38,967 nucleotides of DNA, taken from IMG/VR virus record IMGVR_UViG_3300044703_000136, positions 1 through 38,967 of that record. The stretch is one strand, 5' to 3'. The position numbers and the translations under genes are program-made. The notes beneath the pieces are model-generated. The model saw nothing but the letters and a program-made list of their open reading frames with translations, was not told the DNA's origin and did no database searches. Positions 549-38,967 of this stretch are shown here, piece by piece. This DNA comes from a virus. How positions within the stretch are numbered: position 1 is the stretch's first letter; every line of letters begins with the position of its first letter.

Positions 549-3500
549 TTAAACCGCTTCGCGGCCAATCTCAAAAAGTATCTGATCGTCATTGTGGCCA
601 ACGCTGTCGAGCGGAACATTGAAAGGTAGCCGGCGCCGCGGGTCTCCAGGAGAGTCAGGGTCTTCCGGATCGTGGTCTATCGGGCCGGTTGGCGTTATCG
701 GCGGGCCCTGAGTGAGCAGCTCGAGGCGCTCATAGTATTCGACCGGATAAGCCTGGCAGGTAACCTCCACTTTCAGATCGGGCATGCGCTTCAGCGAGCG
801 GATGCGGAAATAGGTAAACGGCTCCAGGCCCTTAACGAGGCGCGCGGTATTGATGACGTCGAGCTTGGCGCAGTCGATCTTGATAATTCGATAAGGATGA
901 AGGCCGACCGTCTCGAGATACCAGGTAGTAAATTTCCATCGCAGATTGTTCTGTAGTCCGCCTTCGTCAAACTCACCCAGATCCAGAAGCAGGTTCCCCA
1001 GCCGCCCGCCCTCGCCCATGTCTGTAACTCCGAAAGCGTTGTATTCCTTTTGCACCGCGCGCTTCGAGGTGTCGCCAAAGGCGCGGCCGGCCCGGAGTTG
1101 CTGTTCGACGCTCTCAAACGTGAGCGGCACTTGCTTGTTTTCGTGAGCAGCGTCGTCGACCGTGAGAATCACTCGATTGGGCAACTCAGCATCGCTCTGC
1201 TGGGAATAGCTGAGAGTAGACTTTCCCTCCTCGAGACAAACATTGCGATCGTCGCCGCGGTCAGTGAAGGTGGGCACTTCGCCGTCAGAGCAGTCAGCGG
1301 CAAACTCAGTCGAAGCCGCAAAGGCCTGCAGGATGTGCTCACGCGCCAGCTCCGGAGGCGAGAAGGTCGCCAGGTCGTTCAGCCAGAAAGCCGCGCCGGC
1401 CGGATCCGCTGCAGCGTCGCGCCGGAGATAGGCCGTGTAGCAGTCGCTGATAAACTCTTCGTCGGTCCGGGTGCGGTCGTCATACTCGTCGGAAGTAAAC
1501 AGTCCGGAGACGCGTTCCTTACACTCGGCCAGCAACTCCGCCGGCGAGAGCGCCCGCGCGTCGAGCAACGCCTCAAACCACCCCTCGCGCTCGTCGTTAT
1601 CGGCCGGCCGCGCCAGCGCGCCGAAGAATGCCTTGTCGGTGAACACGGCCGTGGAAAACAACTCTGCCGCGCGCCGAAGAGGCACCACGCGAAGCTTGCC
1701 CTTGTCCGGAAACGGCAGACTGAGCCGGCCACTGCGACAGATGTCTTCTACCTGCTGTTGCGCGGAGCGTTCAATCAGCTCGGCGTTAAACTGAGAACGC
1801 GGACCCGTGAAGATGTTGCCGTCCTTGTCCTTCACGCTGACGATTTCCTTGAACCATGCAGCTATCTCAATCCAGTCGGGAATGTAAGCCCGCCGGGCGT
1901 CGAGCCCATAACCCCAACGCTTGTTTCGCAGACAGTGAAGCAGCCACCACCCACGCTCCGACGTGTACTCGAGCGTATAGGTCTCAGCGTCCGAATACAC
2001 GCGCACATCGTTAAGGCCCTCAACTTCAACCGCGCCTCTCAAGTCATCAGCGCCGGCTTTAGTAAAGTCGCCCTGGGCCACTCCCAAAAAGAGCGCCGTG
2101 CTCGAGTAGCTCAGAATGTTTGGCGAAAAAGATGTTGGGGGCTGGCGTTTGGCGCCGATGCGATAATTGGAATGTTCCGGCGCGATGGTTTGATCGTTTA
2201 TCTTGCCGCCGCTTACAGACTGATTCGGCCCCTCGGCGACGCCGAAGAGGCCTTTGACGGAACCCTGGTCCGGATGCTTCGTGTTGGGCTCGACCACGTA
2301 GGCCAGCAGGTCGAGATCAGAAACGTGGCGCCGGCCGGCAATCACCCGCAGCGCCCGCTTGAGGTTTGTCTCGTTGCCGCGCGAGGTTACGGTGATGTTT
2401 GGCCCCTTGGTTTCGTGGACAGTATGCGATTCGACAATGGTATCGAAAGCCAGGAAGGAGCGATCGTCTCCGAGCCGTGCGATGGAGGCGGCGCGACTGT
2501 TGCGCGGGCAACTGGTGTAAGGCAGTCCGGTGTCAGGATCCAGATTGCCGAAGCCAACCCCTTCAACTCCGGAGCTGAGCACCGCCAGCAGCCCGCCCGG
2601 GCTGGGAACGTTGCCGTCGATAGCCGCGCCGTTTACAACTCGCGCCGCAATTACATAAGTTTCCCCAACCTCCAGCGTCAGCACGGCCGAGTACGACTGG
2701 CGCCAGTCGTCACCGAAAACAATCTGCTGGCCATTGAGAAAGGCACTAAAGGAATTGTCGCCGGTGAGCACGAGAATCGCTTTGGTGTCGGCCGCGACAA
2801 AGCTCTTGCGGAAATAAACGGTCGCATTGTCGAAGTTGGCCCGCGCTCTCGAGTCGTGGCTCCATATCCACTTGGCCACTGCGCTCGGAGGGAAAGGCGA
2901 CGGGTTATCGCCCCAGGTCCAGGGCGTCTCCCCAATTGAGGACTGCTCGACGGCCGAGGCCCACCCGCTGTCGTCGAAGTCTGCATCCGCCCAATTGTCC
3001 GCCGGGGCCATCGCCGTCTGCAGCCAGGTAGTGTCGGTGCCGAAGCTGTCTTCGCTTGGAGTGCCCCCAAGATGACGAGAATAGGGACAGCCGCCCTCGT
3101 CGATTTCCGCTTGCGTGCCGAGTAGGCCGCCAAAGACATTTTGGCAGCCGCTATAAAATCCGCGCGCCGGCAGCGACAGCTTACTGGAACGGAAGCCCGA
3201 CTGTGCGGTCGTCTTAAAACGTTCTAAGTTGCCCTCGTCCGGCGGCTGCAGGTGACCCCACCATTCTGTGACCAGCAAGTCCACTTCCGGGAAGTAGTAG
3301 AACACTTCAACCCTGATGCCAGGGCCGTGCGTTTGAAAAAGGCGAGTAAGTTCGTGGTCGCCGTCCCAGAAATCCAGGTCGATCTTGTCGTCACCAATCC
3401 CGGCCTCCTGGGGCACCTCGAGGAAGACTCCGGAGCCGAGTCGCAACTCAATCTCCGCGCCGTCGAGACGGTCAAGCAGTGCCAGGTTATCCAGGAGGTC

Positions 3501-3650
3501 CACCGCGACGCGGGTGGCGTAATAAACCGGGCCGTCCGGAGATGGCCAGTCGCCGAGCAGCAGCTCCGCCACACGCGGGCTTGCGCCCTCGCGCTGCATC
3601 GTGCGCAGCGTCGCCAGCTTTGTCGACAATTGTGGATCTTCGATCGGCAT
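549..3650 (-). CDS. Tail tip/central hub protein with embedded carbohydrate-binding-like and DUF4214-like domains, 1033 aa
   Basis: This is the largest tail-tip gene and follows the tape measure and the SGNH tail protein, the usual place for the lambda gpJ-like hub. Residues 1-190 form a beta-rich N-terminal part with a Cys pair (YSGCQNVFGG, EGGCPYS). Residues about 205-365 resemble a galactose-binding-like jelly roll (DNWADADFDDSGW, VYFRKSF, GDNSFSAFLNGQ). Residues about 380-640 look like hub core. Residues about 670-790 hold two DUF4214-like units, the second with EEFISDCYTAYLRRD and ASTEF. The last 200 residues return to hub-like sequence and a Pro/Asp tail. It sits three bases after the SGNH gene. 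The hub role is inferred from size, order and core pattern; the inserted domains are the unusual part. Confidence 0.75.
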   Translation of the reverse strand: MPIEDPQLSTKLATLRTMQREGASPRVAELLLGDWPSPDGPVYYATRVAVDLLDNLALLDRLDGAEIELRLGSGVFLEVPQEAGIGDDKIDLDFWDGDHELTRLFQTHGPGIRVEVFYYFPEVDLLVTEWWGHLQPPDEGNLERFKTTAQSGFRSSKLSLPARGFYSGCQNVFGGLLGTQAEIDEGGCPYSRHLGGTPSEDSFGTDTTWLQTAMAPADNWADADFDDSGWASAVEQSSIGETPWTWGDNPSPFPPSAVAKWIWSHDSRARANFDNATVYFRKSFVAADTKAILVLTGDNSFSAFLNGQQIVFGDDWRQSYSAVLTLEVGETYVIAARVVNGAAIDGNVPSPGGLLAVLSSGVEGVGFGNLDPDTGLPYTSCPRNSRAASIARLGDDRSFLAFDTIVESHTVHETKGPNITVTSRGNETNLKRALRVIAGRRHVSDLDLLAYVVEPNTKHPDQGSVKGLFGVAEGPNQSVSGGKINDQTIAPEHSNYRIGAKRQPPTSFSPNILSYSSTALFLGVAQGDFTKAGADDLRGAVEVEGLNDVRVYSDAETYTLEYTSERGWWLLHCLRNKRWGYGLDARRAYIPDWIEIAAWFKEIVSVKDKDGNIFTGPRSQFNAELIERSAQQQVEDICRSGRLSLPFPDKGKLRVVPLRRAAELFSTAVFTDKAFFGALARPADNDEREGWFEALLDARALSPAELLAECKERVSGLFTSDEYDDRTRTDEEFISDCYTAYLRRDAAADPAGAAFWLNDLATFSPPELAREHILQAFAASTEFAADCSDGEVPTFTDRGDDRNVCLEEGKSTLSYSQQSDAELPNRVILTVDDAAHENKQVPLTFESVEQQLRAGRAFGDTSKRAVQKEYNAFGVTDMGEGGRLGNLLLDLGEFDEGGLQNNLRWKFTTWYLETVGLHPYRIIKIDCAKLDVINTARLVKGLEPFTYFRIRSLKRMPDLKVEVTCQAYPVEYYERLELLTQGPPITPTGPIDHDPEDPDSPGDPRRRLPFNVPLDSVGHNDDQILFEIGREAV

Positions 3651-3653
3651 TGT

Positions 3654-5972
3654 TTATGGTAGTGAATCGATTGCGGCCGCTACCATTGGGGCGACGATCG
3701 CGTGGCCGGCTTTCGTCAGGTGGATCTTGTCTCCGAAATAATAGGTTGTGTTGTTTTGATCGCCGGGTTCGCCGATCGTAGCGTTGGTGCCGACGTCGGC
3801 CAGCGCGTCATAGAATGAAGCGTCGCCGAGAATCGCCGCGTTGAAGGCCTGCCGGTCTGTTTCAAACTGGCCCGCTGTGCCGCGGGGAAGACAGGTCAAC
3901 ACAACGACTTTCCAGCCGACCGCCCGCCGGGCCAGGCAATAGCTCTTCAGGGCGTTAAAAGGCGCGGTCGGGTTGGAAGCGACTAACGTCATGTCGTTAG
4001 TGCCGCCCCAGACGACAAGCACATTACGATCGTGACCGGCGTCGAAGAACGGATCCACCTGCGTCGCGGCATCCGCAGCCATCTGCGTGCAGGTCTGTCC
4101 ACTAACACCAAAGTTATAAGCGCGGGTACGGTTCGCCTGGGCCAACAGAACCACTTCACTAAATGTCTTCGCGTCTGCAAAGACGTTGCCCACCAGTCCG
4201 GCCGTCAACGAGTCGCCCTCGAAAACAAACGTCTGCTCCGGCTCGAGCTCCGGCACCGTCGAAAGGTAGCGCTCCCTCAGATAGTCAGTGATGAGAGTTA
4301 ACTCGCTCGCAGTAAGTACGCGATTGAAAATAAGCAGCGCCTTAAGGTCGCCGAGGAACGGATAGTTGGCTTGACCGTTGCCGGTGCCCAGCCAGCCGGT
4401 GGACCACGTAGCGCCATTCCAAACTCCGGAGTTAACATTCTGGTTTCGGAAACTCTCGCGGCCATTCGCAATCGCGCGCACTCCGGAGCCCCGCGCGCTC
4501 GAGGCTGGATCGAACACCCATGTCAGTAGATCGAAACCCGAGGAAGGTGCGATGCCGGTGGGGAACGCCACACTGTTCCGAGAACTCGCAACCATTCCCT
4601 GGTTAAAGCCAATTGCAAAGTCTGAGAAGTTTGGCAGCGACATGATAAAACCTGGATCGGTGTCCGCCGGCGTCGTCTTACGCGCCACGACAAGCATGGT
4701 GTATTTCCCGTTTGAGGTTGTGGGCAGCGTCAGCACCATGTTGTCCAGGCCGCTCCCACCGTTGATGAACTTCACAAACGGATCGCCATCATTGGCCACA
4801 TATTGAGGGGCCCATTCAGCGTTGGTTTGAATTGCCGTGCCCGCGGCACCGGCGACGCTGTTGGGCCAGTCGACCACTCCGCTGCCGTCGATAACGCCAC
4901 CCTCGAGCGCGGCAAAGCTGCTAACTCGCGCCGCCGTGCTAACCAGGCGGATTCCCGCGCGCGTCCTCGCGCCAAAGATTGCCTGGTCGCCGCCGCTAAG
5001 AGTGACACGAAAGACGCGCGCGCCATTGACGATATAATCAATCCCGTTGCCGGCCGAGCGCGCGGTGAGTGTGAGCAGCACGCCATTAGGAGTGGGTGTA
5101 GCCAGCGCCCCGCTGTATCCGGTGTCCACTCCGGCAACCATCTTGCCGGCACTAAAGAATCCGTTCGTCAGCCGGAAATACAGATAGTTGTCCTCGTCGA
5201 GAGCCCGAAAGATCAGCGCGACCTCTCCGCCTGAAACCCATATCAACGACGTCTGGAAGAAGCCGTCCGCAAGGCCCGTGTCGATAGTGGCCACGGCTTC
5301 ACTGCTGGCCAGCGCTGACGCGTACAGCTTGCCTCCGGAGATGCCCATCGTCCCGGCGTGCGTGGCCCACGCCTTCGAGCCTGTAGGCGTGGTTCCGATT
5401 ACGCTCGCGCTGTCGGCCCGCGAGAAGAAGTCGCTGGCGATAGTGGTCTGAGGGACGGCCGGCAGTGCTCTTGCGTCCAGACGGAAGATGAGATCGGAAA
5501 TGTCCGGGAATGCAAGCACGGGCGACGCGACGTCCCGGAGCCTGCGTTGTTCCAATGCTAGCCCGGTCGAATAAATCTTTGCTCTCAGCATTTCATAGCT
5601 GAGCCGGTTGTCGACAAAGCTCGCCAGGAAGAGCTTGCGATCGCCGTCTTCCGGATCTTCCACTTCGATCCAAAACGGCCGGTTGCCATTCTCTTTGCTG
5701 GCGCGAAAGAATCTCCAGAGATACTCGGCTCGCGTCGACTGCCCGGCCTCGGTCAGCGTTAGGCTTTCGTCAACGTCGTCCGGAATGAACCCGCCATGGA
5801 CAGCCTCTCCAGGGAGCACGTCGACCTTCATCGACCATGCTCGGGTCCCTGCTGGGTGGCCCACCGTGGCGCCAACCTTAAATCCATCACCGTAGTCTGC
5901 GCCAAGCACGTTCCATTCGCCCGCGATCTCGGTGAAAAAGAATCCTGTTGTGTTGAGTGTAAAAAGGTCCAT
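3654..5972 (-). CDS. Tail protein with LamG-like domains and a C-terminal SGNH hydrolase, 772 aa
   Basis: Residues 1-165 look like a tail-tip adaptor (FFFTEIAGEWNVLGADYGDG, then a FWIEVEDPEDGD segment), fitting distal-tail/gpM-L-type proteins that follow the tape measure. Residues about 170-345 and 350-570 resemble two concanavalin/LamG-like modules. Residues 582-772 are an SGNH/GDSL hydrolase: GDSL with S588, a glycine in NFGVSG, N659 in WGGTND, and D748-x-x-H751 in FGDKIH, so all four blocks are present. Such domains deacylate or deacetylate polysaccharides, and on a virion would act on a surface glycan receptor. The start ATG 5972 lies 28 bases past the tape measure stop, and a 15-nt palindrome covers the ribosome-binding region. 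Confidence 0.8.
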   Translation of the reverse strand: MDLFTLNTTGFFFTEIAGEWNVLGADYGDGFKVGATVGHPAGTRAWSMKVDVLPGEAVHGGFIPDDVDESLTLTEAGQSTRAEYLWRFFRASKENGNRPFWIEVEDPEDGDRKLFLASFVDNRLSYEMLRAKIYSTGLALEQRRLRDVASPVLAFPDISDLIFRLDARALPAVPQTTIASDFFSRADSASVIGTTPTGSKAWATHAGTMGISGGKLYASALASSEAVATIDTGLADGFFQTSLIWVSGGEVALIFRALDEDNYLYFRLTNGFFSAGKMVAGVDTGYSGALATPTPNGVLLTLTARSAGNGIDYIVNGARVFRVTLSGGDQAIFGARTRAGIRLVSTAARVSSFAALEGGVIDGSGVVDWPNSVAGAAGTAIQTNAEWAPQYVANDGDPFVKFINGGSGLDNMVLTLPTTSNGKYTMLVVARKTTPADTDPGFIMSLPNFSDFAIGFNQGMVASSRNSVAFPTGIAPSSGFDLLTWVFDPASSARGSGVRAIANGRESFRNQNVNSGVWNGATWSTGWLGTGNGQANYPFLGDLKALLIFNRVLTASELTLITDYLRERYLSTVPELEPEQTFVFEGDSLTAGLVGNVFADAKTFSEVVLLAQANRTRAYNFGVSGQTCTQMAADAATQVDPFFDAGHDRNVLVVWGGTNDMTLVASNPTAPFNALKSYCLARRAVGWKVVVLTCLPRGTAGQFETDRQAFNAAILGDASFYDALADVGTNATIGEPGDQNNTTYYFGDKIHLTKAGHAIVAPMVAAAIDSLP

Positions 5973-6000: not shown

Positions 6001-8799
6001 CTACGCCAGCCGGTGGCGCTGGCTGCTCAGTCGAATCAAACTTGCATCCTGATCGTAGGCGTCAATCAGTCCACGTGCGCCAAACCTAACAACATCGTGC
6101 GGCCGCATCCCCTCGAGCCGTGCGAGGAAGCTGTTCAATCGATCGAGCGCGGCGATGTGCTGATCCGAAGCGCCGCCGCCGCCCATTGCCGACATGGCAT
6201 CGCGATGGTTAAGGAAGTAGCCGTTGGCCGGTGCGATGAATGGCTCCGGCCCGTTTTCACCTGTCCAATAAGCGCGACCTCGTATTCCTGGTCCGCCTGC
6301 AGCGCGCGGCGGTAGTCCGGCGCCCACGCCCGGGCCCGTCCGCGTCGGGGCAGACGGCGCACCGCTGCCCCTGAACACGCCGCCCGGAGACAGTCCGGAC
6401 GCAAGGCCCGTAACCACTCCGCCCCAATTGCCTGCGGCCGCGTTGCTGGCCATGCCGGCTATCTGCGAAAGAATCGGACCCACGCCGGGAATAAACGATA
6501 GGAAGGGCGCTGCCACGCCAAGCAGCTTTGAGAGGAATCCGCGCTTCTTGCCGACCTGCTGTTGCGGCATCATGCCGGAGACTTGACCGATAGCACTCGA
6601 GAGCTGGTCGAGAACGCTCATGCCGACAATGAGCTGCTCACGCGACGCCTTCTGGTATTCCTTGGTCAGCGCAATCGAAGTTGCTGCGTGCTCCTTCTGG
6701 GCATCGTTGAGCTGAGTGATTGGCCTCATCAGCGGCTGAGCATTCATCATCTGGTTGAATGCGGCCGTGCCTGGGCCAAGTGCGTCCGTGACCAATTCCT
6801 CCATCTGGACCTTGACGTCGACTACGGCGCCGTCTGCTTCACCGAGCACGAGTGTGAATTCCTTCAGGTCCTGGGTAGGCTTATCGAATACACCGGCCGC
6901 GCCGAACCTGGACGCTGTTGAAGCTCGCGAGCTGTGATTACCGAACACTGCCGCGGCGCCGCCGCGAGCATCCGCGCTGCCGACGAAGTAGACAGGCACC
7001 GGGGTTGCTTCCGAGATCGAAGCGCCGTTAGCCAGGGCCTGGTTGTAATAACCCATCCACTGTTGTCTAGATTTTTGGCGGCCGCCGCCAATCGTCGAAC
7101 CAGGCGTTGACGTCCAGTCCTTGGCCGTCAAGGCCATCATCTGGTCGACGTTCCCAGATTTCAGGGTTTGTAGTCCCCCCTGATGGCTGACCATCAACCA
7201 CAGCGCGACCAGCTTTTGGTCCTCTAGGTTAGAAAAGTTCAGCGGGCCAAAGACCGATTCCGCCTTCAGCCAGTTCGTAAGTGTCTCCTGATATAAACCT
7301 GACGCGGAGCTTCGGCCACGATCACCTTTGAACCACTGAGACTTCGGAACGATTTGGCCGGGATGCAATGCACCTGAGTTCACGCGGCGGCCACCCGCCA
7401 TTACGTTGATGCCCCCACCTTCAGCCTTCGCGAGAGTGTCAAGCAGCGCCTGGACTCGCGGGTCTTTCAGCAATTCACGAATGGTGGCGGCGATATCTTC
7501 ACCGCCCTGGCCCTGGATGAAGCTCCGGAGGCCACGCACAGCCCCGAGGCCAATACCCTCACCAATCGGCTCGCCTATCTCGCGCGCACTACGCCCGCTT
7601 GGAGATTTGATTTCGAAAACTGTTTTTAGTCCGGTTTCGACAAAGCCGCCTAGCTTCGTGAACGATTGCATCATCGACGTGGGGCTGAAGTTAATCAGAC
7701 CTTCAGCAATGCCGCCGCCGACGCTCACGCCGATCTTCAAACTCTTTTCGGTGAAGTCGAGTAACGTGCCGGAAAGCTTGTCAATGTAATCAACAACCTT
7801 TTTTGCCTGTGGACTGTCGAGGATCCGGTTTGCCTGTTCGTAGAAATCACCAATGCCGCGCGTTACGTTCTGGGTCCCTTCCGCCACGCGCAACTGTGAG
7901 AGCACTCCGAACTGGCGCTCGCGGCCGGAAACCGTCTGCGAGGTCTTGTAGGCAGCCAGGCCACCCTTGTCGCGCTCAATCCCTTCTGCAATCAATCTCG
8001 CGGCCACGTCGCCGCGTATGCGGCCCTCTCTCATCAACTGCTCGATCTGTTTCTCTTTGAGGCCGGTCGCTTCACTCAGGTACTTTTTTGCGTCGATGCC
8101 CACGCGATAGAGTTTCTTAAGTTCTTTGCTCCCGAGTTCGCCTTTCTCCGCAATCAGGCCCAGGGCTTCGGCTACCTTTTCGAACGTGCCCTCTTTGCCA
8201 AAGTCCGCCGCCTGGTCTGACGCCGCCTCGAGAATCTTTCGCGTGAGCCCTAGATTGCCCGTGAGATCAGAAACAGTTTCAGAGAGGTCGATGACACGTT
8301 GCGGCGCCTGGCCAATGTCCTTGGATATTCCCAGCAGATCAGCAATGTACTTGTCCGCTTCCTGCTTCGTGCCGGTTAGTTTGGTGTATTCGACGCGGGT
8401 GTCTTCAATGAGCTTATTGAGTGCGATGCCACTACTGATTTGATTGAGAATTATCGGCGCGACTGTCGACAGCGCAGTATCAATCCCGCCGCCGATCGCT
8501 GAACCGATGGTCGTGCCGATGCCGGGCGCAACGGCGGTGCCGATGAGACTGCCGAGAGTTGAGAGGTTGAATGAACTTCCAAGGGCCGCGACCGCAGACG
8601 TCCCGATATCGCTGCCGAACTTTTTGCCAACCGAAACACCGTCGAAAGCTTTGGCGGTTTCCTTGCCGACCTTCTGAATGGTCTTGCCGTACTTCTCGAC
8701 CGTCGTGTCAGCTTTCTTGAACTCAGACGTGTGCTTGGTGATGTCGGCGATCACCTCGGTGCGGTACTTGAAAGCGGTGATGGTTTTTGGTGTGGCCAC
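6001..8799 (-). CDS. Tape measure protein with an embedded lambda-R-like muramidase/transglycosylase domain, 932 aa
   Basis: Length, Gly/Ala-rich hydrophobic stretches (residues 65-120 and 755-800) and position between the tail chaperone region and tail-tip genes identify the tape measure. Residues about 150-285 match the tape-measure N-terminal domain pattern, ending in LSEATGLKEKQIEQLMREGR and KGGLAAY. Residues about 450-592 resemble lambda-R-type lytic transglycosylases: AEGGGINVMAGG, ALHPG, SSASGLYQETLTNW, DWTSTPG and a closing GYYNQAL. This would cut peptidoglycan during DNA entry. Residues 820-870 carry the Gly-rich tail segment common near tape measure ends (YWTGENGPEPFIAP). The start is GTG 8799, with a heptad repeat just upstream where a Shine-Dalgarno is expected. 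Confidence 0.88.
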   Translation of the reverse strand: MATPKTITAFKYRTEVIADITKHTSEFKKADTTVEKYGKTIQKVGKETAKAFDGVSVGKKFGSDIGTSAVAALGSSFNLSTLGSLIGTAVAPGIGTTIGSAIGGGIDTALSTVAPIILNQISSGIALNKLIEDTRVEYTKLTGTKQEADKYIADLLGISKDIGQAPQRVIDLSETVSDLTGNLGLTRKILEAASDQAADFGKEGTFEKVAEALGLIAEKGELGSKELKKLYRVGIDAKKYLSEATGLKEKQIEQLMREGRIRGDVAARLIAEGIERDKGGLAAYKTSQTVSGRERQFGVLSQLRVAEGTQNVTRGIGDFYEQANRILDSPQAKKVVDYIDKLSGTLLDFTEKSLKIGVSVGGGIAEGLINFSPTSMMQSFTKLGGFVETGLKTVFEIKSPSGRSAREIGEPIGEGIGLGAVRGLRSFIQGQGGEDIAATIRELLKDPRVQALLDTLAKAEGGGINVMAGGRRVNSGALHPGQIVPKSQWFKGDRGRSSASGLYQETLTNWLKAESVFGPLNFSNLEDQKLVALWLMVSHQGGLQTLKSGNVDQMMALTAKDWTSTPGSTIGGGRQKSRQQWMGYYNQALANGASISEATPVPVYFVGSADARGGAAAVFGNHSSRASTASRFGAAGVFDKPTQDLKEFTLVLGEADGAVVDVKVQMEELVTDALGPGTAAFNQMMNAQPLMRPITQLNDAQKEHAATSIALTKEYQKASREQLIVGMSVLDQLSSAIGQVSGMMPQQQVGKKRGFLSKLLGVAAPFLSFIPGVGPILSQIAGMASNAAAGNWGGVVTGLASGLSPGGVFRGSGAPSAPTRTGPGVGAGLPPRAAGGPGIRGRAYWTGENGPEPFIAPANGYFLNHRDAMSAMGGGGASDQHIAALDRLNSFLARLEGMRPHDVVRFGARGLIDAYDQDASLIRLSSQRHRLA

Positions 8800-12005: not shown

Positions 12006-12662
12006 CTAGACCTCGTAAGGGTCGATTACGTGATGCACGTTCCAACCGATTGCCGAGGCTTCGATTGTGAAAACCTCAGATGGGACTACGAAGCCGTCAT
12101 CGGTGATTTCGGCGTGAACGCATAAGCCGCCCAAGGTGTAATCACGTTCGCCGGTGTCAGGGTCAGTAACTACAGCCTGGGCCATGTCGGCGAGATGCTT
12201 CCTGACCTCGGTCGGCGCTAAATCTCGAAAGTGAAACGCACGGGTTTGCACCGGCAAGGCAGCACTTACACCTTCTGAATCGGGTGTCTCTTTCGCCTCG
12301 CGCGTGCGCACCTGGTCGAAAACGGAAATGCGGGCCTGGCCCGCGGCCGATTTCAGCGAATCTTCATTCGAATGCGTCACCCATTCGTCGACGCCGTTCT
12401 TGCCGATGTCGGTTTGATATTGGTAGCCGTTCGCGAGCGGCGCCGCTGCGCTGTCAATCTTCGCCAGACGGCGTTTGAATTCGTTGACGATTTGCTGGCG
12501 GATGGTTGTTTGCGGAGAAGACATGAGTCTGGAGTCTGGAGCCTGGAGTCTAGTAGCAGAGACTGAAGGCGCGGGCATGGACGTAGCCGCACGCGCGTAA
12601 ATCGGTGTGGCCGCCAGCGCGATCGTCGACGCAATCATGAACAGCAAGGTAAGTCGTTTCAT
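12006..12662 (-). CDS. Tail terminator-like protein with an N-terminal signal-peptide-like leader, 218 aa
   Basis: From about residue 50 the protein matches the tail terminator pattern: TTIRQQIVNEFKRRLAKI, VFDQVRTREAKE, RKHLADMAQAV, the glycine pair in YTLGGLCVHAEI, and a terminal DPYEV. These proteins cap the tail tube and join it to the head. The start is ATG 12662 (MKRLTLLFMIAS), with AAGGAG nine bases upstream. Residues 1-25 look like a Sec signal peptide ending near YARA, followed by a linker encoded by four 7-bp repeats. An internal MSSPQTT start would give a normal-length protein but lacks a ribosome-binding site. A secreted tail terminator makes no obvious sense, so the leader is an oddity. 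Confidence 0.7.
   Translation of the reverse strand: MKRLTLLFMIASTIALAATPIYARAATSMPAPSVSATRLQAPDSRLMSSPQTTIRQQIVNEFKRRLAKIDSAAAPLANGYQYQTDIGKNGVDEWVTHSNEDSLKSAAGQARISVFDQVRTREAKETPDSEGVSAALPVQTRAFHFRDLAPTEVRKHLADMAQAVVTDPDTGERDYTLGGLCVHAEITDDGFVVPSEVFTIEASAIGWNVHHVIDPYEV
12525..12552. repeat. 7-bp tandem repeat inside the tail terminator gene, four units
   Basis: GAGTCTG, GAGTCTG, GAGCCTG, GAGTCTA. It lies inside the reading frame and encodes part of the linker between the signal-like leader and the terminator fold; 28 bp is not a multiple of three. Confidence 0.85.
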
Positions 12663-12682
12663 TGTCGGATTCTCCTTCAAGG

Positions 12683-14015: not shown

Positions 14016-16352
14016 TTACGCAACCTCAGCGCTCGGCAGGTTCTGGCAGAACTCAACCGGGTAACCGCCGAACTGGAACGGACCGGCGCCCGCGAGGTCG
14101 CCCGGCGTCGCCCCGCCCGCGGCGATCAGAATCTTGCGCATGATTTGGTAGTAGAACGTCTGGTGGCAGAAGAACACTGGCCTGATGCCCTTGAAACGCG
14201 GCAATCTTCCCATCATCATGTTCAAGTCGTCGGAGGTCACTGCATCCCAATCGTCCGTAGCCAAGGCGATGATTGGACCGGCTTTGCGCTTTGTCGCGGT
14301 GCCGTCCGCATTGCCGACGCTGTGCGCGATAAAGTCCACACGAACGCGGCCCTTCAAATCAACGGTGTCGTTGCGGAAGGACGAGTGCTCGCTCATCGAG
14401 ATCGTCAGCGGCGAACGGTCGCCCAGCATGGTCGCCATGCGCAGGTCCCCAAGGATGAGCGGCACCTGTTCGGGTTTGGTCGGTGCACCGTTCGCAATCA
14501 CCAGTCCCGCAATGTTGGCCTTGGTTGCGCTGAGGCTCAGAAGTTTCGGAATGATTCCGATCACGCCCTGGTAGCCGGTTTCGTTTTGTTCGCTGCCGGT
14601 GCCGTCCGCGAGGAACCCGAGATCGTCTTCCAGCCGCGCTGCGGCCAGCGTCATCTCGTAGGCGAGGTCATCGGCCTGATTGACGGCAGAATCCTCGTTC
14701 AACTCGCTCGTGATGTTCGCCAGGCACAACCACTTTTTGGCGACTAGCTTGTTACCGCCCCACTTCTTTTTCTCGATTTCAACATCTTCGGCTTCGCCGG
14801 CGGCGTGGAATTGCAGCCCGCCTTCGCGACGGCGTACGTTCTTGGCCTCAGCGACCATCGGTTCAATCTTCGCGTAGCGACGAATCACACCAAAGTCTTC
14901 GTGAAGGTCGATGGTCTCAGGCGACCATTCTTCCGCAACGGTGAAGCCGCCCGCTTCCGGATCTCCCTCACTCTGGCCCTCAGCCGCGCGCTGCGCCTGA
15001 AGCAGTCCATTAGCCTTCGCGTACTCGAAAGCGCGGGCAATTGCCGGATTTCTCTCGGCGCCCTTTTGGCCATGAAACGCATTTGCTAGTAGCCCATTCC
15101 AGAACCGGTAGGCGCGCAAGTCGCCGCCTTCACCTTTGAACACTTTGAGCGAAGAGGTCCGACGGCCGGGAACAGTGACCAACCCCTGCGGCGGCTTCGC
15201 GGTATTCACTGCGGCGCGGGTGGCAGTCTTTGCTTTCTCGATCGCGGCCTTGAACATGTCGGTCACGGCCGGCATTTCAAGCGTCAGCTTCGTCGCGTCG
15301 CGCGCGTAATCTCGGGCGAGCTGCGTGTACGCCGCAACCTCTTCCGGCGTGTCGCCGAATACTCCGGCCCAGCCGATCAATTCAGCCTGGCGCGTGGCGA
15401 TGATTTGCTGAGGCGTCGGCGGTGTTTGCGCGGCGCGCTTGTCAGCGGCGGGGTGCAGAGTGCAGTTCTCGGTGTGGCACTCTCCAGCGGAGGTGGCGGT
15501 GCATCGCATGGTGTTCGTTCTCCTTCGTTCTCCGGTTTCAACGGGGTCTGATTGGCCAGTCGCGTCACAGCAGCAGCAACACGGCCTGGGGTAATAGGAT
15601 TGACAGCAAGCACAGTTACAACTGAGCGGCGCTGAGGTCAGATTAGGGCAGCAGCAGCAGCACGCCTGGGGATTGCCGGGCGTGCAGCACGCGCACGAAC
15701 AGCCCAATCCGCGTTGCTGGGCGCCTCCATGTTCATGGGCGCGACGATCGGGCCCGTGACCGACCGAGATGTCAGCGGCGTGAGTCTCGGTGCAGATTGA
15801 GAGCACGCGCCAGGCCATTGCCCGCAGCACCGGGAGGCCACTGATTTTCTTGCCAGTGTCGATATACGGCGCGGTCACCTCGTAATCGAAACTGAAGTTG
15901 CGACGCACGCCCTTGAGGACGTCGACGCGTTCTAACTGGGCTTCCGGCCGCTCCGAAAATCTGAGGTCAGCGCAACCCTTGCGGATGGCGCTATCGATTT
16001 TCGCGCTGCCATCCTCGACAACTCCCATCACCTGGTTAATGTCGTGATTGCGAATAAACTGACCGCCGCTGTTAAGCCTGCGGAAGTCGGCGGATGCCTG
16101 GGATGAGTGGTCAAGAATTTCGTAGAAACTGAAGCCGCCAATGTTCCGGTAGACCGGAGCATCGCTCGAGAAAGTCACCGAGATAACCTGGGCATCATCG
16201 GCGAGCTTCAACTCTCGCGCGTCAAACGTCGTGTCGCGGCGCTGGCTTACACCGATCAGACTGTCGCCTGGAGATGTCTGGGGCGTTGCATTGCGTCGCT
16301 GGTGTATGCCTACCAGTTTGTCGAGCGGAAATTGTTTGAGGGAACGCTTCAT
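14016..16352 (-). CDS. Prohead protease fused to HK97-type major capsid protein, with a cysteine-rich linker, 778 aa
   Basis: Residues about 50-205 are an S78-like prohead protease: H103 in RNHDINQVMG, S154 in GVRRNFSFDYEV, and a closing W-x12-D-x-SVG that aligns with the usual PADxSVG. Residues about 216-300 are a linker with a duplicated motif, CxCACC-x7-CCCCC (218-235 and 245-262), plus CTATSAGECHTENC. Residues about 300-430 are helical, like a scaffold/delta domain, and residues about 430-778 form the capsid (GGFTVAEEWSPETIDLHE, FLADGTGSEQNETGYQG, ending FQFGGYPVEF). Protease and capsid are separate genes in most phages. An internal AAGGAG with ATG 15509 (residue 282) could give a 497-aa capsid alone. 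Confidence 0.85.
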   Translation of the reverse strand: MKRSLKQFPLDKLVGIHQRRNATPQTSPGDSLIGVSQRRDTTFDARELKLADDAQVISVTFSSDAPVYRNIGGFSFYEILDHSSQASADFRRLNSGGQFIRNHDINQVMGVVEDGSAKIDSAIRKGCADLRFSERPEAQLERVDVLKGVRRNFSFDYEVTAPYIDTGKKISGLPVLRAMAWRVLSICTETHAADISVGHGPDRRAHEHGGAQQRGLGCSCACCTPGNPQACCCCCPNLTSAPLSCNCACCQSYYPRPCCCCCDATGQSDPVETGERRRTNTMRCTATSAGECHTENCTLHPAADKRAAQTPPTPQQIIATRQAELIGWAGVFGDTPEEVAAYTQLARDYARDATKLTLEMPAVTDMFKAAIEKAKTATRAAVNTAKPPQGLVTVPGRRTSSLKVFKGEGGDLRAYRFWNGLLANAFHGQKGAERNPAIARAFEYAKANGLLQAQRAAEGQSEGDPEAGGFTVAEEWSPETIDLHEDFGVIRRYAKIEPMVAEAKNVRRREGGLQFHAAGEAEDVEIEKKKWGGNKLVAKKWLCLANITSELNEDSAVNQADDLAYEMTLAAARLEDDLGFLADGTGSEQNETGYQGVIGIIPKLLSLSATKANIAGLVIANGAPTKPEQVPLILGDLRMATMLGDRSPLTISMSEHSSFRNDTVDLKGRVRVDFIAHSVGNADGTATKRKAGPIIALATDDWDAVTSDDLNMMMGRLPRFKGIRPVFFCHQTFYYQIMRKILIAAGGATPGDLAGAGPFQFGGYPVEFCQNLPSAEVA
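15507..15525 (-). promoter_or_regulatory. Internal ribosome-binding site and ATG for separate capsid protein
   Basis: Within the fusion gene AAGGAG (15525-15520) lies ten bases upstream of an in-frame ATG (15509-15507, residue 282), just after the cysteine repeats and before the capsid scaffold part. Internal in-frame starts making the more abundant partner are known in phages, as in lambda C/Nu3. Here it could provide excess capsid subunits over protease fusions. Confidence 0.5.
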
Positions 16353-34394: not shown

Positions 34395-34634
34395 TTATTC
34401 TTCTCCTCTGGGTTTCTCTCCCCAGAGCTTTTCATAGGAGATGTTCAGGTGAGCCGACAGCTTCTCTCGAATCCGTCTGTTAGCCCGGCCTCCGCTGATG
34501 GTTTCAGCTATCCGGTTAGGCGCTTCGCCGAACACCACTCCCAGTCCCGTAACCGTCTCTTCGCGCAAGTCGAGCATCGCCCTTATCTGCGCCGGAGGGA
34601 TTCCTTTTTCTTCTGTGTCTAATGAGGCAGTCAT
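34395..34634 (-). CDS. Ner/Cro-like early regulator, 79 aa
   Basis: The 79-aa protein contains LGVVFGEAPNRIAETISGGR then ANRRIREKLSAHLNISYEKL W, which resembles Ner/HTH_35 proteins of Mu-like phages, where a HTH is followed by IWPSRY-type ends. It is the first leftward gene downstream of the consensus promoter at 34683-34711 and faces the repressor, the usual Cro/Ner place. GGAAG lies six bases before ATG 34634. It would repress the repressor or its own promoter. Confidence 0.68.
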   Translation of the reverse strand: MTASLDTEEKGIPPAQIRAMLDLREETVTGLGVVFGEAPNRIAETISGGRANRRIREKLSAHLNISYEKLWGEKPRGEE

Positions 34635-34682
34635 GCTATCTTCCGAGCGGTTGCGATAAACGTCGCATTGGTGACGGGCGGG

Positions 34683-34711
34683 ATATTAAGGTAACGCCTA
34701 AGACCTGTCAA
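34683..34711 (-). promoter_or_regulatory. Early leftward sigma70-type promoter
   Basis: On the minus strand a consensus TTGACA (34711-34706), 17 bases, then TAATAT (34688-34683). It lies between repressor and Ner-like gene, directed into the early operon. It is the strongest promoter match seen and the natural target of the repressor. Confidence 0.72.
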
Positions 34712-34720
34712 GCAAAATCT

Positions 34721-35218
34721 TTGGTGGCAACTAAACCCCAGTCGAACAGAGATTTTGGACAACGCCTCAAGGAAGCGTTCGGCGGGGACAACCAAGCTAA
34801 AATTGCTGAGAAATTGGGAATTTCGGACGCGAGCGTCAGTGCCTACATCAAGGGCGAAAGCCTTCCGAGCTTAGACAACCTAAAGAAAATTTCAGCGTTG
34901 ACTAAACGATCGCTGCACTGGCTGCTCACCGGCGAAGGCGAAGCAGACCTCGACCCCTATCGTTTTCTGAACGAAAAGGTCCGGGCGCTGGTCGAGCGCA
35001 TGGCCGCAAACGATAACGTTGACTTTGGGAAAGCGCTGGAGTTGCTGGTAGTCGACGCACTGGTGAGGCGCGGATCCTATTTGTTCACTCTTTACCCCCG
35101 GCTTCGAGGACGTGAGATGGATGAGCTTCGTTTATTGTTTTCGCTGATTCAGGAAGGGGCTGAAAATGATGATGTCGAAGTTCAGAAGCCCGCGACTAAA
35201 GGGCAGAACGTCGCTTAA
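34721..35218 (+). CDS. CI-like repressor, XRE-type HTH without protease domain, about 165 aa
   Basis: The HTH is FGQRLKEAFGGDNQAKIAEK, LGISDASVSAYIKGESLPS, then the CI-type segment SLHWLLTGEGE. The C-terminal part is helical (KALELLVVDALVRRGSYLFT) with no S24 Ser-Lys peptidase, so SOS-driven self-cleavage is not expected. Starts at TTG 34721 or GTG 34724 leave almost no leader. An ATG at 34622 would run through the early promoter and overlap the Ner start, so it is rejected. The mRNA could be leaderless, as for lambda CI made from PRM. It converges on, and overlaps by 23 bases, the TPR regulator. Confidence 0.72.
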   Translation: MVATKPQSNRDFGQRLKEAFGGDNQAKIAEKLGISDASVSAYIKGESLPSLDNLKKISALTKRSLHWLLTGEGEADLDPYRFLNEKVRALVERMAANDNVDFGKALELLVVDALVRRGSYLFTLYPRLRGREMDELRLLFSLIQEGAENDDVEVQKPATKGQNVA

Positions 35219-36618: not shown

Positions 36619-36819
36619 ATGAAAACCTTTAGACATCTACTACTCGCAACGCTCTTGATCGTCGCCGTCAGCTCCGCAGCCTTCGCCGGCGACATGCCGA
36701 CAGACATCCCGGCGCCGCCACCGCCGCCGATCGGGATGAGCTCGCAATCTCTGCCGCAATTGATCGACGTTTCATTTTGGGACAGGACAACCACCGAGTT
36801 GCTCTCCTGGATGTTCTGA
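36619..36819 (+). CDS. Short secreted proline-rich peptide precursor, 66 aa
   Basis: ATG 36619 has GAGAGGA six bases upstream and lies after the promoter at 36553-36581; the ATG at 36577 is inside the -10 box and cannot be used. Residues 1-23 are a Sec signal peptide (MKTFRH, a hydrophobic core, AFA cleavage). The mature 43 residues start GDMPTDIPAPPPPPIG and end TTTELLSWMF, with a hydrophobic C-terminus. There is no enzyme motif and the size fits a signalling or exported peptide. The only neighbour sharing its intergenic region is the TPR-HTH regulator. Alternatively a small envelope peptide. Confidence 0.72.
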   Translation: MKTFRHLLLATLLIVAVSSAAFAGDMPTDIPAPPPPPIGMSSQSLPQLIDVSFWDRTTTELLSWMF

Positions 36820-37050: not shown

Positions 37051-37079
37051 TTGCCAAACTTTTAACAGGGGCGTATAGT
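37051..37079 (+). promoter_or_regulatory. Promoter of the secreted protein and integrase
   Basis: TTGCCA (37051-37056), 17 bases, TATAGT (37074-37079), followed by AGGGGGAG (37093-37100) and ATG 37105. A good sigma70 match expected to drive both the 202-aa protein and the directly abutting integrase. Confidence 0.7.
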
Positions 37080-37104
37080 CCGCGCGTTCGTTAGGGGGAG
37101 AAAA

Positions 37105-37713
37105 ATGAAATTCCTTGCGCGTCTCTTCGCCGCCTGCATCCTCGCGGGCTCACTCGCCACCGTCTCTTACGCTCAAGCAACTAATACCCGGCCGCCAACG
37201 CCTGACGATGAGGCCGTGCGGGCCATCATCGTGTTCACCCGGATTCTCGATAGCAAAGAGAAGGCTTTGGACCATGTGGCCTATCTAGCTACGTACCGCA
37301 TGCGGGCGCCGTGGCAGTTTTCCACTCTTGTTGAAATCACCCAGCGACTGGCCGTGATGGGTTTTGACATTAAGGAAGTCGACGCGTCCCTCGTCCCGTG
37401 CGGAGATATGGCCGCGGCTCTCACTACAGAAGATGACGACGAGCGTTTTGCGCGAATTGTATTTTTGATTTTTGAATTAACCGCTGGCGACTTAGACGGC
37501 CAATTAGTCCGCGATTCTCTTTTGGGCCTTGAGGGCTTGGGAGTTCCGATTACCAAGCTTCTAAGTGAGGCCACGGGGTTGAAGCCAGCAAAGGTACGGG
37601 ATCTGATTATGAACGGACGTTTGCGCGGCGGTGTGGCGAAGCGCGTCCTGCTGGACGGCTTCACACGCCACTACGGTGGCCTCGCCGCCAAACTCGCAGA
37701 CGAGAAAGACTGA
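37105..37713 (+). CDS. Secreted protein carrying a tape-measure-type domain, 202 aa
   Basis: Residues 1-24 are a Sec signal peptide (MKFLARLFAACILAGSLATV then SYAQA). From about residue 75 to 196 the sequence has the tape-measure N-terminal domain pattern: a helical segment with CGDMAAAL, then LLSEATGLKPAKVRDLIMNG and YGGLAA. Residues 153-195 align without gaps to residues 241-283 of this phage's own tape measure protein, with 23 of 43 identical. The gene has its own promoter and its stop (37711-37713) directly abuts the integrase ATG. Location with the integrase suggests expression in the lysogen. A periplasmic mimic that interferes with incoming tape measure and DNA entry is a plausible inference. 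Confidence 0.8.
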   Translation: MKFLARLFAACILAGSLATVSYAQATNTRPPTPDDEAVRAIIVFTRILDSKEKALDHVAYLATYRMRAPWQFSTLVEITQRLAVMGFDIKEVDASLVPCGDMAAALTTEDDDERFARIVFLIFELTAGDLDGQLVRDSLLGLEGLGVPITKLLSEATGLKPAKVRDLIMNGRLRGGVAKRVLLDGFTRHYGGLAAKLADEKD

Positions 37714-38967
37714 ATGCCGCGCGGAACTAAAGACGGATCCATTGTTCGCCTCGACAAGAACGGCCGCGTTACGCAGTCGGCGAAAGACACTGTCCGCTTC
37801 GTCATCAAGAAACGCTACACCGACCTGCAGGGCCGCAGCCGCGAAAAGAAACGCATTGCCTACTCCGCGACTGAGTCTCTTCGCCAGAAGCGCGCGATCG
37901 ATCGGGAGATAGAAAACGAACTCGCCGGCGTTCCCAAACCAAACGCAAGTCGCACCGTCTCCGACGCTATCGCCTGGTGCAACAAACATCGATTCAAGCC
38001 GGCCGTCTACGTTGGCAGCGTGAAGGTCGCCGGGCAGCGAACCTGGAAGGCCACGCGAAACGCACTGAAACCGGTCGAGGCTTTCATGGGTGACATGGCC
38101 ATCATGAAAGTTACCTACGACGACTTCGCCGACTACAAGGAAGAGCGGCTACGCGCTCCGGTTGTTATTCCACGGGTGAAGTTCGAAGCGGTCGGCGGCG
38201 TCCGGACTCGAGTTGATTACATTGAAACTCGCCAGCGCGCGATCGGCACTGTCAATCGTGAACTGGCCTGGGCTCATTGCGTGTTTCAGGTGGCGCTCAG
38301 AAAGAAGTGGATTACTGAGAACCCGTTCGACCAGGGCGCGCCGCTGATTCAGGTCTCCATCGAGAGCAAGCATGAGCGGATACTTTCCTATCCGGAGCAG
38401 GTCCGGCTCTTTGCTGCCTTCGAAGCCCAGAAGCGCGGTCACCTTCCTTTTGCGGTCACCTTCGCCCTCGAGACGGCGATGCGCAAAGAGGAACAGTTTC
38501 GGCTCGATCGTTTTGAAGACGTCGACCTGGAGGGCCGGTTGCTGACGGCGCTTAGCTACAAAGGCAAGCGCACCATTCGCCGGCTGGTTCCCATCACCGA
38601 GGTTTTGATGCCGCAGCTCGTCGAGCATCTGGCCTCGCACAGCAACCAGCAGGTTTTTGAAATCAACGATCCGAAGAAGTCTTTTGCCAACTCATGTGAA
38701 GACGCCGGCATTGAGGGAGTAACCTGGCACTCACTGCGCCACACGGCCATCACCCGCATGGTCCACGTGTATAAGATTCCACCGATGGACGTCATGAAGA
38801 TATCCGGCCACACAAACTGGAAGACGTTTTTTGAAACTTATGTAAACGTCGACGAAGACATGGTCCGCTCCATCGGCGCCGCGATCGACTCCGCGCGCAC
38901 CGACCCGACCGTCGCTGACTTAGAACGTTTTGAGTTGAATCCCCTGGTAACCGAAACCCCACAATGA
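37714..38967 (+). CDS. int: Tyrosine recombinase integrase, 417 aa, complete
   Basis: The catalytic set is complete: R257 (AMRKEE), K283 (SYKGKR), H339-x-x-R342 (HSLRHTAITRM), H366 (SGHTNW) and the nucleophile Y376 (FFETYVNVD). Residues 1-70 are a basic arm-type N-terminus and 80-200 the core-binding domain. The stop codon is the last base of the window, so attP or attR should lie just outside. No ribosome-binding site of its own is apparent because it begins immediately after the upstream TGA, indicating coupled translation with the secreted tape-measure-like protein. Confidence 0.93.
   Translation: MPRGTKDGSIVRLDKNGRVTQSAKDTVRFVIKKRYTDLQGRSREKKRIAYSATESLRQKRAIDREIENELAGVPKPNASRTVSDAIAWCNKHRFKPAVYVGSVKVAGQRTWKATRNALKPVEAFMGDMAIMKVTYDDFADYKEERLRAPVVIPRVKFEAVGGVRTRVDYIETRQRAIGTVNRELAWAHCVFQVALRKKWITENPFDQGAPLIQVSIESKHERILSYPEQVRLFAAFEAQKRGHLPFAVTFALETAMRKEEQFRLDRFEDVDLEGRLLTALSYKGKRTIRRLVPITEVLMPQLVEHLASHSNQQVFEINDPKKSFANSCEDAGIEGVTWHSLRHTAITRMVHVYKIPPMDVMKISGHTNWKTFFETYVNVDEDMVRSIGAAIDSARTDPTVADLERFELNPLVTETPQ

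Follow-up and report, generated by a model that had tools for sequence, protein, structure and literature searches.

A predicted exported tape measure module encoded beside a phage integrase: a candidate superinfection exclusion decoy

Why would a phage encode, directly next to its integrase, a small protein with a putative signal peptide that resembles a part of its own tape measure protein (TMP)? The gene in question lies in an IMG/VR virus record of 38,967 bases, hereafter called the window, whose final base is that of the integrase stop codon. The first-pass annotation had described the 202-aa product as an exported mimic of a domain of the phage's own TMP that could act in superinfection exclusion. 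The features relevant to this proposal are the following.

34622..35218, plus strand: HTH/CI-type repressor (HTH_3, E=3e-10; Phage_CI_repr, E=1e-7; PHROG repressors)
36619..36819, plus strand: second small predicted exported protein of the same cassette, 66 aa (signal-peptide anatomy)
37051..37079, plus strand: sigma-70-like promoter TTGCCA-17-TATAGT, 10/12 (consensus match only)
37094..37100, plus strand: Shine-Dalgarno sequence GGGGGAG (sequence)
37105..37713, plus strand: exported TMP-domain gene, 202 aa (ORF with Shine-Dalgarno sequence, TMP homology, AF2 fold; export predicted)
37105..37173, plus strand: predicted Sec signal peptide, residues 1-23, cleavage between VSYA and QA (sequence anatomy, crude hydropathy rule)
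37225..37701, plus strand: TMP N-terminal-type helical module, residues ~41-199 (homology, profile, AF2, BFVD)
37555..37698, plus strand: C-terminal third, residues 151-198, closest to the phage's own TMP (24/48 identities)
37714..38967, plus strand: tyrosine integrase (PF00589, E=5e-13), its start codon directly after the stop of the 202-aa ORF
6001..8799, minus strand: TMP, 932 aa, the sole intragenomic paralogue of the exported protein
7921..8412, minus strand: TMP_3-type module of the TMP, about residues 130-293, counterpart of the exported protein
8407..8598, minus strand: hydrophobic, Gly-rich stretch immediately ahead of the module in the TMP, residues 68-131 (hydropathy)

The structural genes are on the minus strand, and the repressor, the 66-aa ORF, the 202-aa ORF and the integrase gene are all on the plus strand. 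The gene of interest is located between the repressor-side genes and the integrase gene, which corresponds to a lysogeny module position. It starts with ATG, has a coding-like base composition, and its last base directly precedes the integrase ATG at 37714. The promoter of its own and the integrase adjacency claimed for it were both recovered, the former as the 10/12 match listed above, with three such sites in the 5-kb region versus 1.3 expected. The N-terminus (MKFLARLFAACILAGSLATVSYA followed by QA) has the anatomy of a Sec signal peptide with an SPase I-like site, in agreement with the earlier prediction; this call and those for the other cargo proteins described below were made with a home-made hydropathy and cleavage rule rather than a trained predictor. 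The protein is devoid of a usable lipobox, as its sole N-terminal Cys, residue 11 (FAAC), is too early and closely preceded by Arg-6. The predicted signal peptide is followed by essentially one domain (residues about 40-199); the protein is a single module coded in the lysogeny region and not a whole TMP, which would be a long, length-ruling protein of the tail cluster. No family match was found for the 66-aa protein in Pfam or PHROG, and PADLOC models gave no match for the 202-aa protein or the other integrase-adjacent cargo proteins tested.

Several products of the minus-strand structural genes have features of their own. The TMP harbours a lysozyme-like region behind its TMP_3 module (PHROG 17230, residues 437-591, E=6e-14). 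The tail cluster codes for a protein with a Laminin_G_3-like region and a C-terminal GDSL/SGNH esterase domain (3654-5972, E=3e-15), whose substrate is probably on the cell surface. A conserved hub-like protein has a DUF4214 domain at residues 716-786 (549-3650). In the structural region, the product of ORF 12006-12680 has a predicted signal peptide, and its homologues in relatives occur with or without a signal-like start. A large ORF of the capsid region (14016-16352) encodes a Cys cluster (CSCACCTPGNPQACCCCC...CCQSYYPRPCCCCC), and its counterpart in a close relative is 84% identical over its length.

Is the exported protein truly related to the TMP? The ungapped match initially reported between its residues 153-195 and TMP residues 241-283 (23/43 identities) was reproduced, and it is the most similar stretch, at the C-terminal end, of a longer BLASTP alignment of TMP residues 136-283 with residues 42-195 (51/158 identities, E=4e-14). 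The homology spans the whole mature exported protein, beyond these 43 residues. The region also falls, as proposed, within a known TMP N-terminal domain, since Pfam TMP_3 (PF20155) matches residues 138-292 of the TMP with E=1.4e-8 and 35.1 bits, under the curated cut-off of 41. Searched with the exported protein alone, TMP_3 gave no match at E<=1. The profile searches suggested by the first-pass annotation were otherwise positive: PHROG TMP family 12798 matches the exported protein with E=3e-4, and a profile of 11 other TMPs, built without the exported protein and hence non-circular, finds its residues 40-198 with E=3.2e-22 and 79.7 bits. With that profile, the window's own TMP scores lower (45.8 bits). 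A profile of own-family TMPs only retrieves the exported protein at 1e-13. Among GenBank phages, 17 records were matched; the proteins are TMPs wherever annotated, and two unannotated records examined have frames of 846 and 1,494 aa.

The AF2 model of the exported protein is a helical domain with a mean pLDDT of 86, with blocks at about 84-97 across most of the mature domain and low confidence at residues 6-25. Its best named matches in BFVD are TMP N-terminal domains, with TM scores up to 0.70 and an rmsd of 2.4 over 165 columns; the input alignment of the model included TMP rows. The corresponding region of the TMP, modelled separately, has the same order of helices, with long helices before and after it (flanks of low confidence). 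The Gly-rich hydrophobic segment precedes the module in the window TMP and in all five TMPs of relatives tested, and it is not present in the exported protein. The mature exported protein is thus the globular module cut out of the TMP, without the flanking long helices and the hydrophobic segment. Fold comparisons with the PDB gave no useful relative (best Z of 6.0 over 62 residues), and a match in a PDB sequence search (E=0.97) was discarded as due to chance.

The initial proposal named the existence of many secreted homologues outside phages as an outcome that would refute it. We looked for them with a nine-row profile, which gave 4 matches in 294 Planctomycetota, 11 in 385 Alphaproteobacteria and 28 in 398 Pseudomonadota genomes (~1,070 genomes and ~42 matches in all, the sets partly overlapping and the surveyed phyla possibly not including that of the host). 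All matches are in open, TMP-sized frames of 442-1,727 aa, and no stand-alone module was found in these genomes, so that the survey did not refute the proposal. Pattern scans of IMG/VR and GTDB genomes, which require near-exact 8-mers and hence miss distant orthologues, yielded no orthologue of the exported protein. Relatives with similar tail genes, some of whose records are fragments, did not yield a counterpart either.

The relationship of the exported protein to TMPs is mosaic, so that the description as a mimic of the phage's own TMP holds for one part of the protein and not for another. The C-terminal third (residues 151-198) is 38-50% identical to own-family TMPs, with the own TMP highest (24/48, 50%), and 13-35% identical to others. 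In contrast, residues 42-90 are only 10% identical to the own TMP and 10-20% to own-family TMPs versus 20-33% to other TMPs. Overall identity to any TMP is 27-35%. In a phylogenetic tree, the exported protein has a long branch and is a weak sister (89/86) of the own TMP family. Between the codons of the exported gene and the TMP gene, third positions are 34% identical and second positions 62%. With third positions saturated and second positions at that level, a recent copy or conversion did not take place, and the similarity has been kept at the protein level; recent gene conversion between the two genes is ruled out even for the best stretch, in which 14/43 third positions are identical.

Sequence replacement within a TMP was noted in another phage. 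In IMGVR 3300044750_000007 (L006/L020-L021), the portal-capsid genes are about 84-94% identical to those of the window, and the TMP matches the window TMP only in its C-terminal ~100 residues. The N-terminal part of the TMP has been swapped between these close relatives, which would fit exclusion pressure on that part.

We analysed the position next to the integrase gene in related phages. The five phages of this integrase family (the window and four others) all have one or more genes for predicted exported or membrane proteins just upstream of the integrase gene, and in three of the five an XRE-type HTH gene lies ahead of this cargo. In 3300044839_000061 (integrase 67% identical), the order is an exported 156-aa protein, an integrase-fragment/GIY-YIG ORF and the integrase; in 3300044841_000164 (64%), XRE, an exported 183-aa protein, a 169-aa ORF and the integrase; in 3300025324_000020 (44%), XRE, an exported 312-aa protein and the integrase; and in 3300011443_000043 (38%), XRE, a DUF4282 two-TM protein, a lipoprotein-like ORF (LILGC) and the integrase. 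The less related integrases of 3300005764_000069 and 3300036401_000265 have no exported cargo directly upstream, which indicates that the slot is tied to the integrase family of the window. The mature parts of the cargo proteins are mostly mutually unrelated, and the cargoes of 3300044839_000061, 3300044841_000164 and 3300011443_000043 have no sequence link to tails. A relative of the 156-aa cargo is present in 3300005764_000069, away from the integrase gene. The idea of a common promoter/signal-peptide cassette was rejected, as the window has no DNA similarity with the others in the slot.

Two of these loci deserve separate mention. The XRE, DUF4282 two-TM and lipoprotein-like genes before the integrase of 3300011443_000043 (L092:1215-3833) are candidate envelope-acting lysogeny cargo; kinship of the DUF4282 protein with HK97 gp15 was considered and rejected, gp15 being of the YebO type. 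In 3300044839_000061, the ORF between the cargo and the intact integrase (L022:1266-1925) joins a second N-terminus of an integrase to a GIY-YIG-like nuclease domain (E=0.0035), and it looks like a homing-type insertion with duplication.

A second case of tail copying was found in 3300025324_000020. Its 312-aa cargo aligns with residues 127-323 of a 473-aa ORF of its own tail cluster, with 95/203 identities and E=2e-53. The members of the pair are encoded as follows.

L036:5054-5992: integrase-adjacent cargo of 3300025324_000020
L088:4028-5446: tail-cluster ORF of 3300025324_000020, two genes after the TMP

The 473-aa protein is called fibre-like from its position and sequence style only, as it has no family match above cut-off. 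The pair shows 48% identity over 197 aligned residues and 32% identity at third codon positions, and the cargo domain was found in that contig only in the IMG/VR scan. As judged from the saturated third codon positions, this pair and that of the window are old, retained proteins. Comparison of ORFs within each genome gave exactly one paralogue pair for the window (45 ORFs) and one for 3300025324_000020 (48 ORFs), and both associate an integrase-adjacent exported protein with a tail-cluster protein. Other relatives have no paralogue pair or unrelated ones such as the integrase duplication, and the apparent pairs of G691 are overlapping extracts. The coincidence of these two sole pairs is the strongest argument that tail copying is meaningful in these phages. 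In yet another phage, IMGVR 3300005471_000041, a 508-aa fibre-like protein of the tail cluster with DUF5907 repeats (L025:7729-9252) has a signal-peptide-like start, which is odd for a virion protein.

What might the exported module do? The best explanation, whose chances we place a little below even, is that this lysogeny-cassette gene codes for a decoy of the TMP N-terminal module that acts in superinfection exclusion. The protein would be expressed in lysogens from its putative promoter, exported to the periplasm by the Sec pathway and active during TMP ejection by a superinfecting phage. As a free module, it might join the incoming TMP oligomer in place of that TMP's own module or, alternatively, occupy the host envelope partner of the incoming TMP; with either mixed assembly or partner occupation, the DNA conduit would fail. 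The position of the hydrophobic segment just before the module suggests that the latter would be near the membrane upon TMP ejection. As the N-terminal half of the protein resembles the TMPs of other phages, its targets likely include rival phages beyond close kin. This explanation is supported by the whole-length homology, the TMP fold, the lysogeny position, strand and promoter, the constraint at the protein level, the slot cargo, the second tail copy, the lack of stand-alone modules in the ~1,070 genomes surveyed, and the precedents of Ltp and SNIPE described below. Against it, no orthologue was found, the known exclusion protein Ltp binds the C-terminal end of a TMP, and three other cargoes have no sequence link to tails. 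A broader proposition, that the slot between repressor and integrase in this integrase family recruits signal-peptide-tagged modules of the phage's own tail (from the TMP in the window, from a fibre-like protein in 3300025324_000020) as exclusion decoys, with tail self-mimicry being a general lysogen defence, is tentative and rather doubtful at this stage.

The same data may be read otherwise. One alternative is lysogenic conversion with no role in exclusion: a TMP domain of old origin would have been repurposed for a periplasmic or secreted host function such as envelope binding, competition or adhesion, and the slot would be a general site for exported cargo. We consider this unlikely but not negligible: the tail-unrelated cargoes of the slot agree with it, and a domain with overall identities to TMPs of only 27-35% could have acquired a new function, but it leaves unexplained that two of five cargoes copy tail-region modules of their own phage, each as the sole paralogue in its genome, and that the last third of the protein resembles the own TMP more than any other.

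A structural or lytic role appears improbable, with a TMP fragment turned into a minor virion component, a TMP chaperone or a helper in assembly. The homology to a tail component would suit it, and the hydrophobic stretch at the N-terminus might stay uncleaved and serve as an anchor rather than a signal peptide; however, the SPase I-like site is good, the gene is on the strand opposite to the structural genes, beside the repressor and integrase genes, and relatives with similar tail genes lack a detectable counterpart, some of their records being fragments. We give equally little credence to the exclusion of heterologous rivals only, with a module from another phage's TMP masking a partner or TMP of that kind. 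Residues 42-90 are indeed nearer to other TMPs (20-33%) than to the own one (10%), and the canonical-TMP profile prefers the exported protein to the own TMP (79.7 versus 45.8 bits), whereas the C-terminal third has its nearest matches in the own TMP family and the tree, with its long branches, weakly places the protein as sister to that family (89/86). Finally, a decaying or accidental gene, i.e. a captured, functionless piece of a TMP that became joined to a signal sequence by accident, would fit the lack of a detected orthologue but is very improbable given the intact ORF with its Shine-Dalgarno sequence, promoter and coding-like composition, the domain boundaries that fit the module, and the protein similarity kept despite saturated synonymous divergence.

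If the exported decoy explanation is correct, copying a tail domain and adding a signal peptide would represent a simple evolutionary route to exclusion. The protein, being small and soluble, could also be used to address a standing question, namely which envelope components are contacted by the N-terminal module of the TMP as DNA is injected, and single-domain exported tail paralogues beside integrase genes would be a search rule for further cases.

HK97 gp15, the subject of work by Cumby in 2012 and 2015, is reportedly a prophage exclusion protein, with injection by its target depending on the TMP. It is a 62-aa membrane protein with a YebO match (E=1e-8), encoded beside the TMP gene and without a TMP domain. 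The window protein, a TMP-type module, has no YebO match in Pfam searches. The first-pass annotation had taken gp15 as its model, which proved a poor choice, and Ltp of phage TP-J34 is closer (PMC3952083). Ltp is an exported protein whose gene, part of a lysogeny module, is transcribed in the prophage, and it acts through the TMP to block the injection of DNA (PMC3952083). Both are thus phage-coded proteins of a lysogeny module, export being predicted for that of the window. In contrast with the latter, which lacks a usable lipobox and is itself a TMP-type module, Ltp is lipid-anchored, has repeat domains and binds the C-terminal end of the TMP. Glo of Vibrio phage K139 is described, in a source citing Nesper 1999, as a soluble periplasmic exclusion protein (PMC3952083), which is also the role proposed for the window protein. 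Unlike the latter, it has no known TMP homology. SNIPE is a defence that encounters the TMP at the inner membrane while DNA is being injected. It acts at residues 100-150 of the TMP of Bas14, and for lambda-type TMPs a region at 300-400 plays a part at this membrane (PMC13190303). N-terminal regions of TMPs are thus reachable there, but SNIPE is a membrane nuclease and not a tail-derived decoy. Regarding TMP_3 (PF20155), the exported protein is the same domain by profile and fold; TMPs contain it as one inner part of a long tail protein, whereas in the window protein it stands alone behind a predicted signal peptide. In the open-access literature searched, we found no exported exclusion protein derived from a TMP or constructed from another tail module. 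Exported exclusion proteins acting on the TMP are known, as exemplified by Ltp, and the tail-module construction would be a new building principle.
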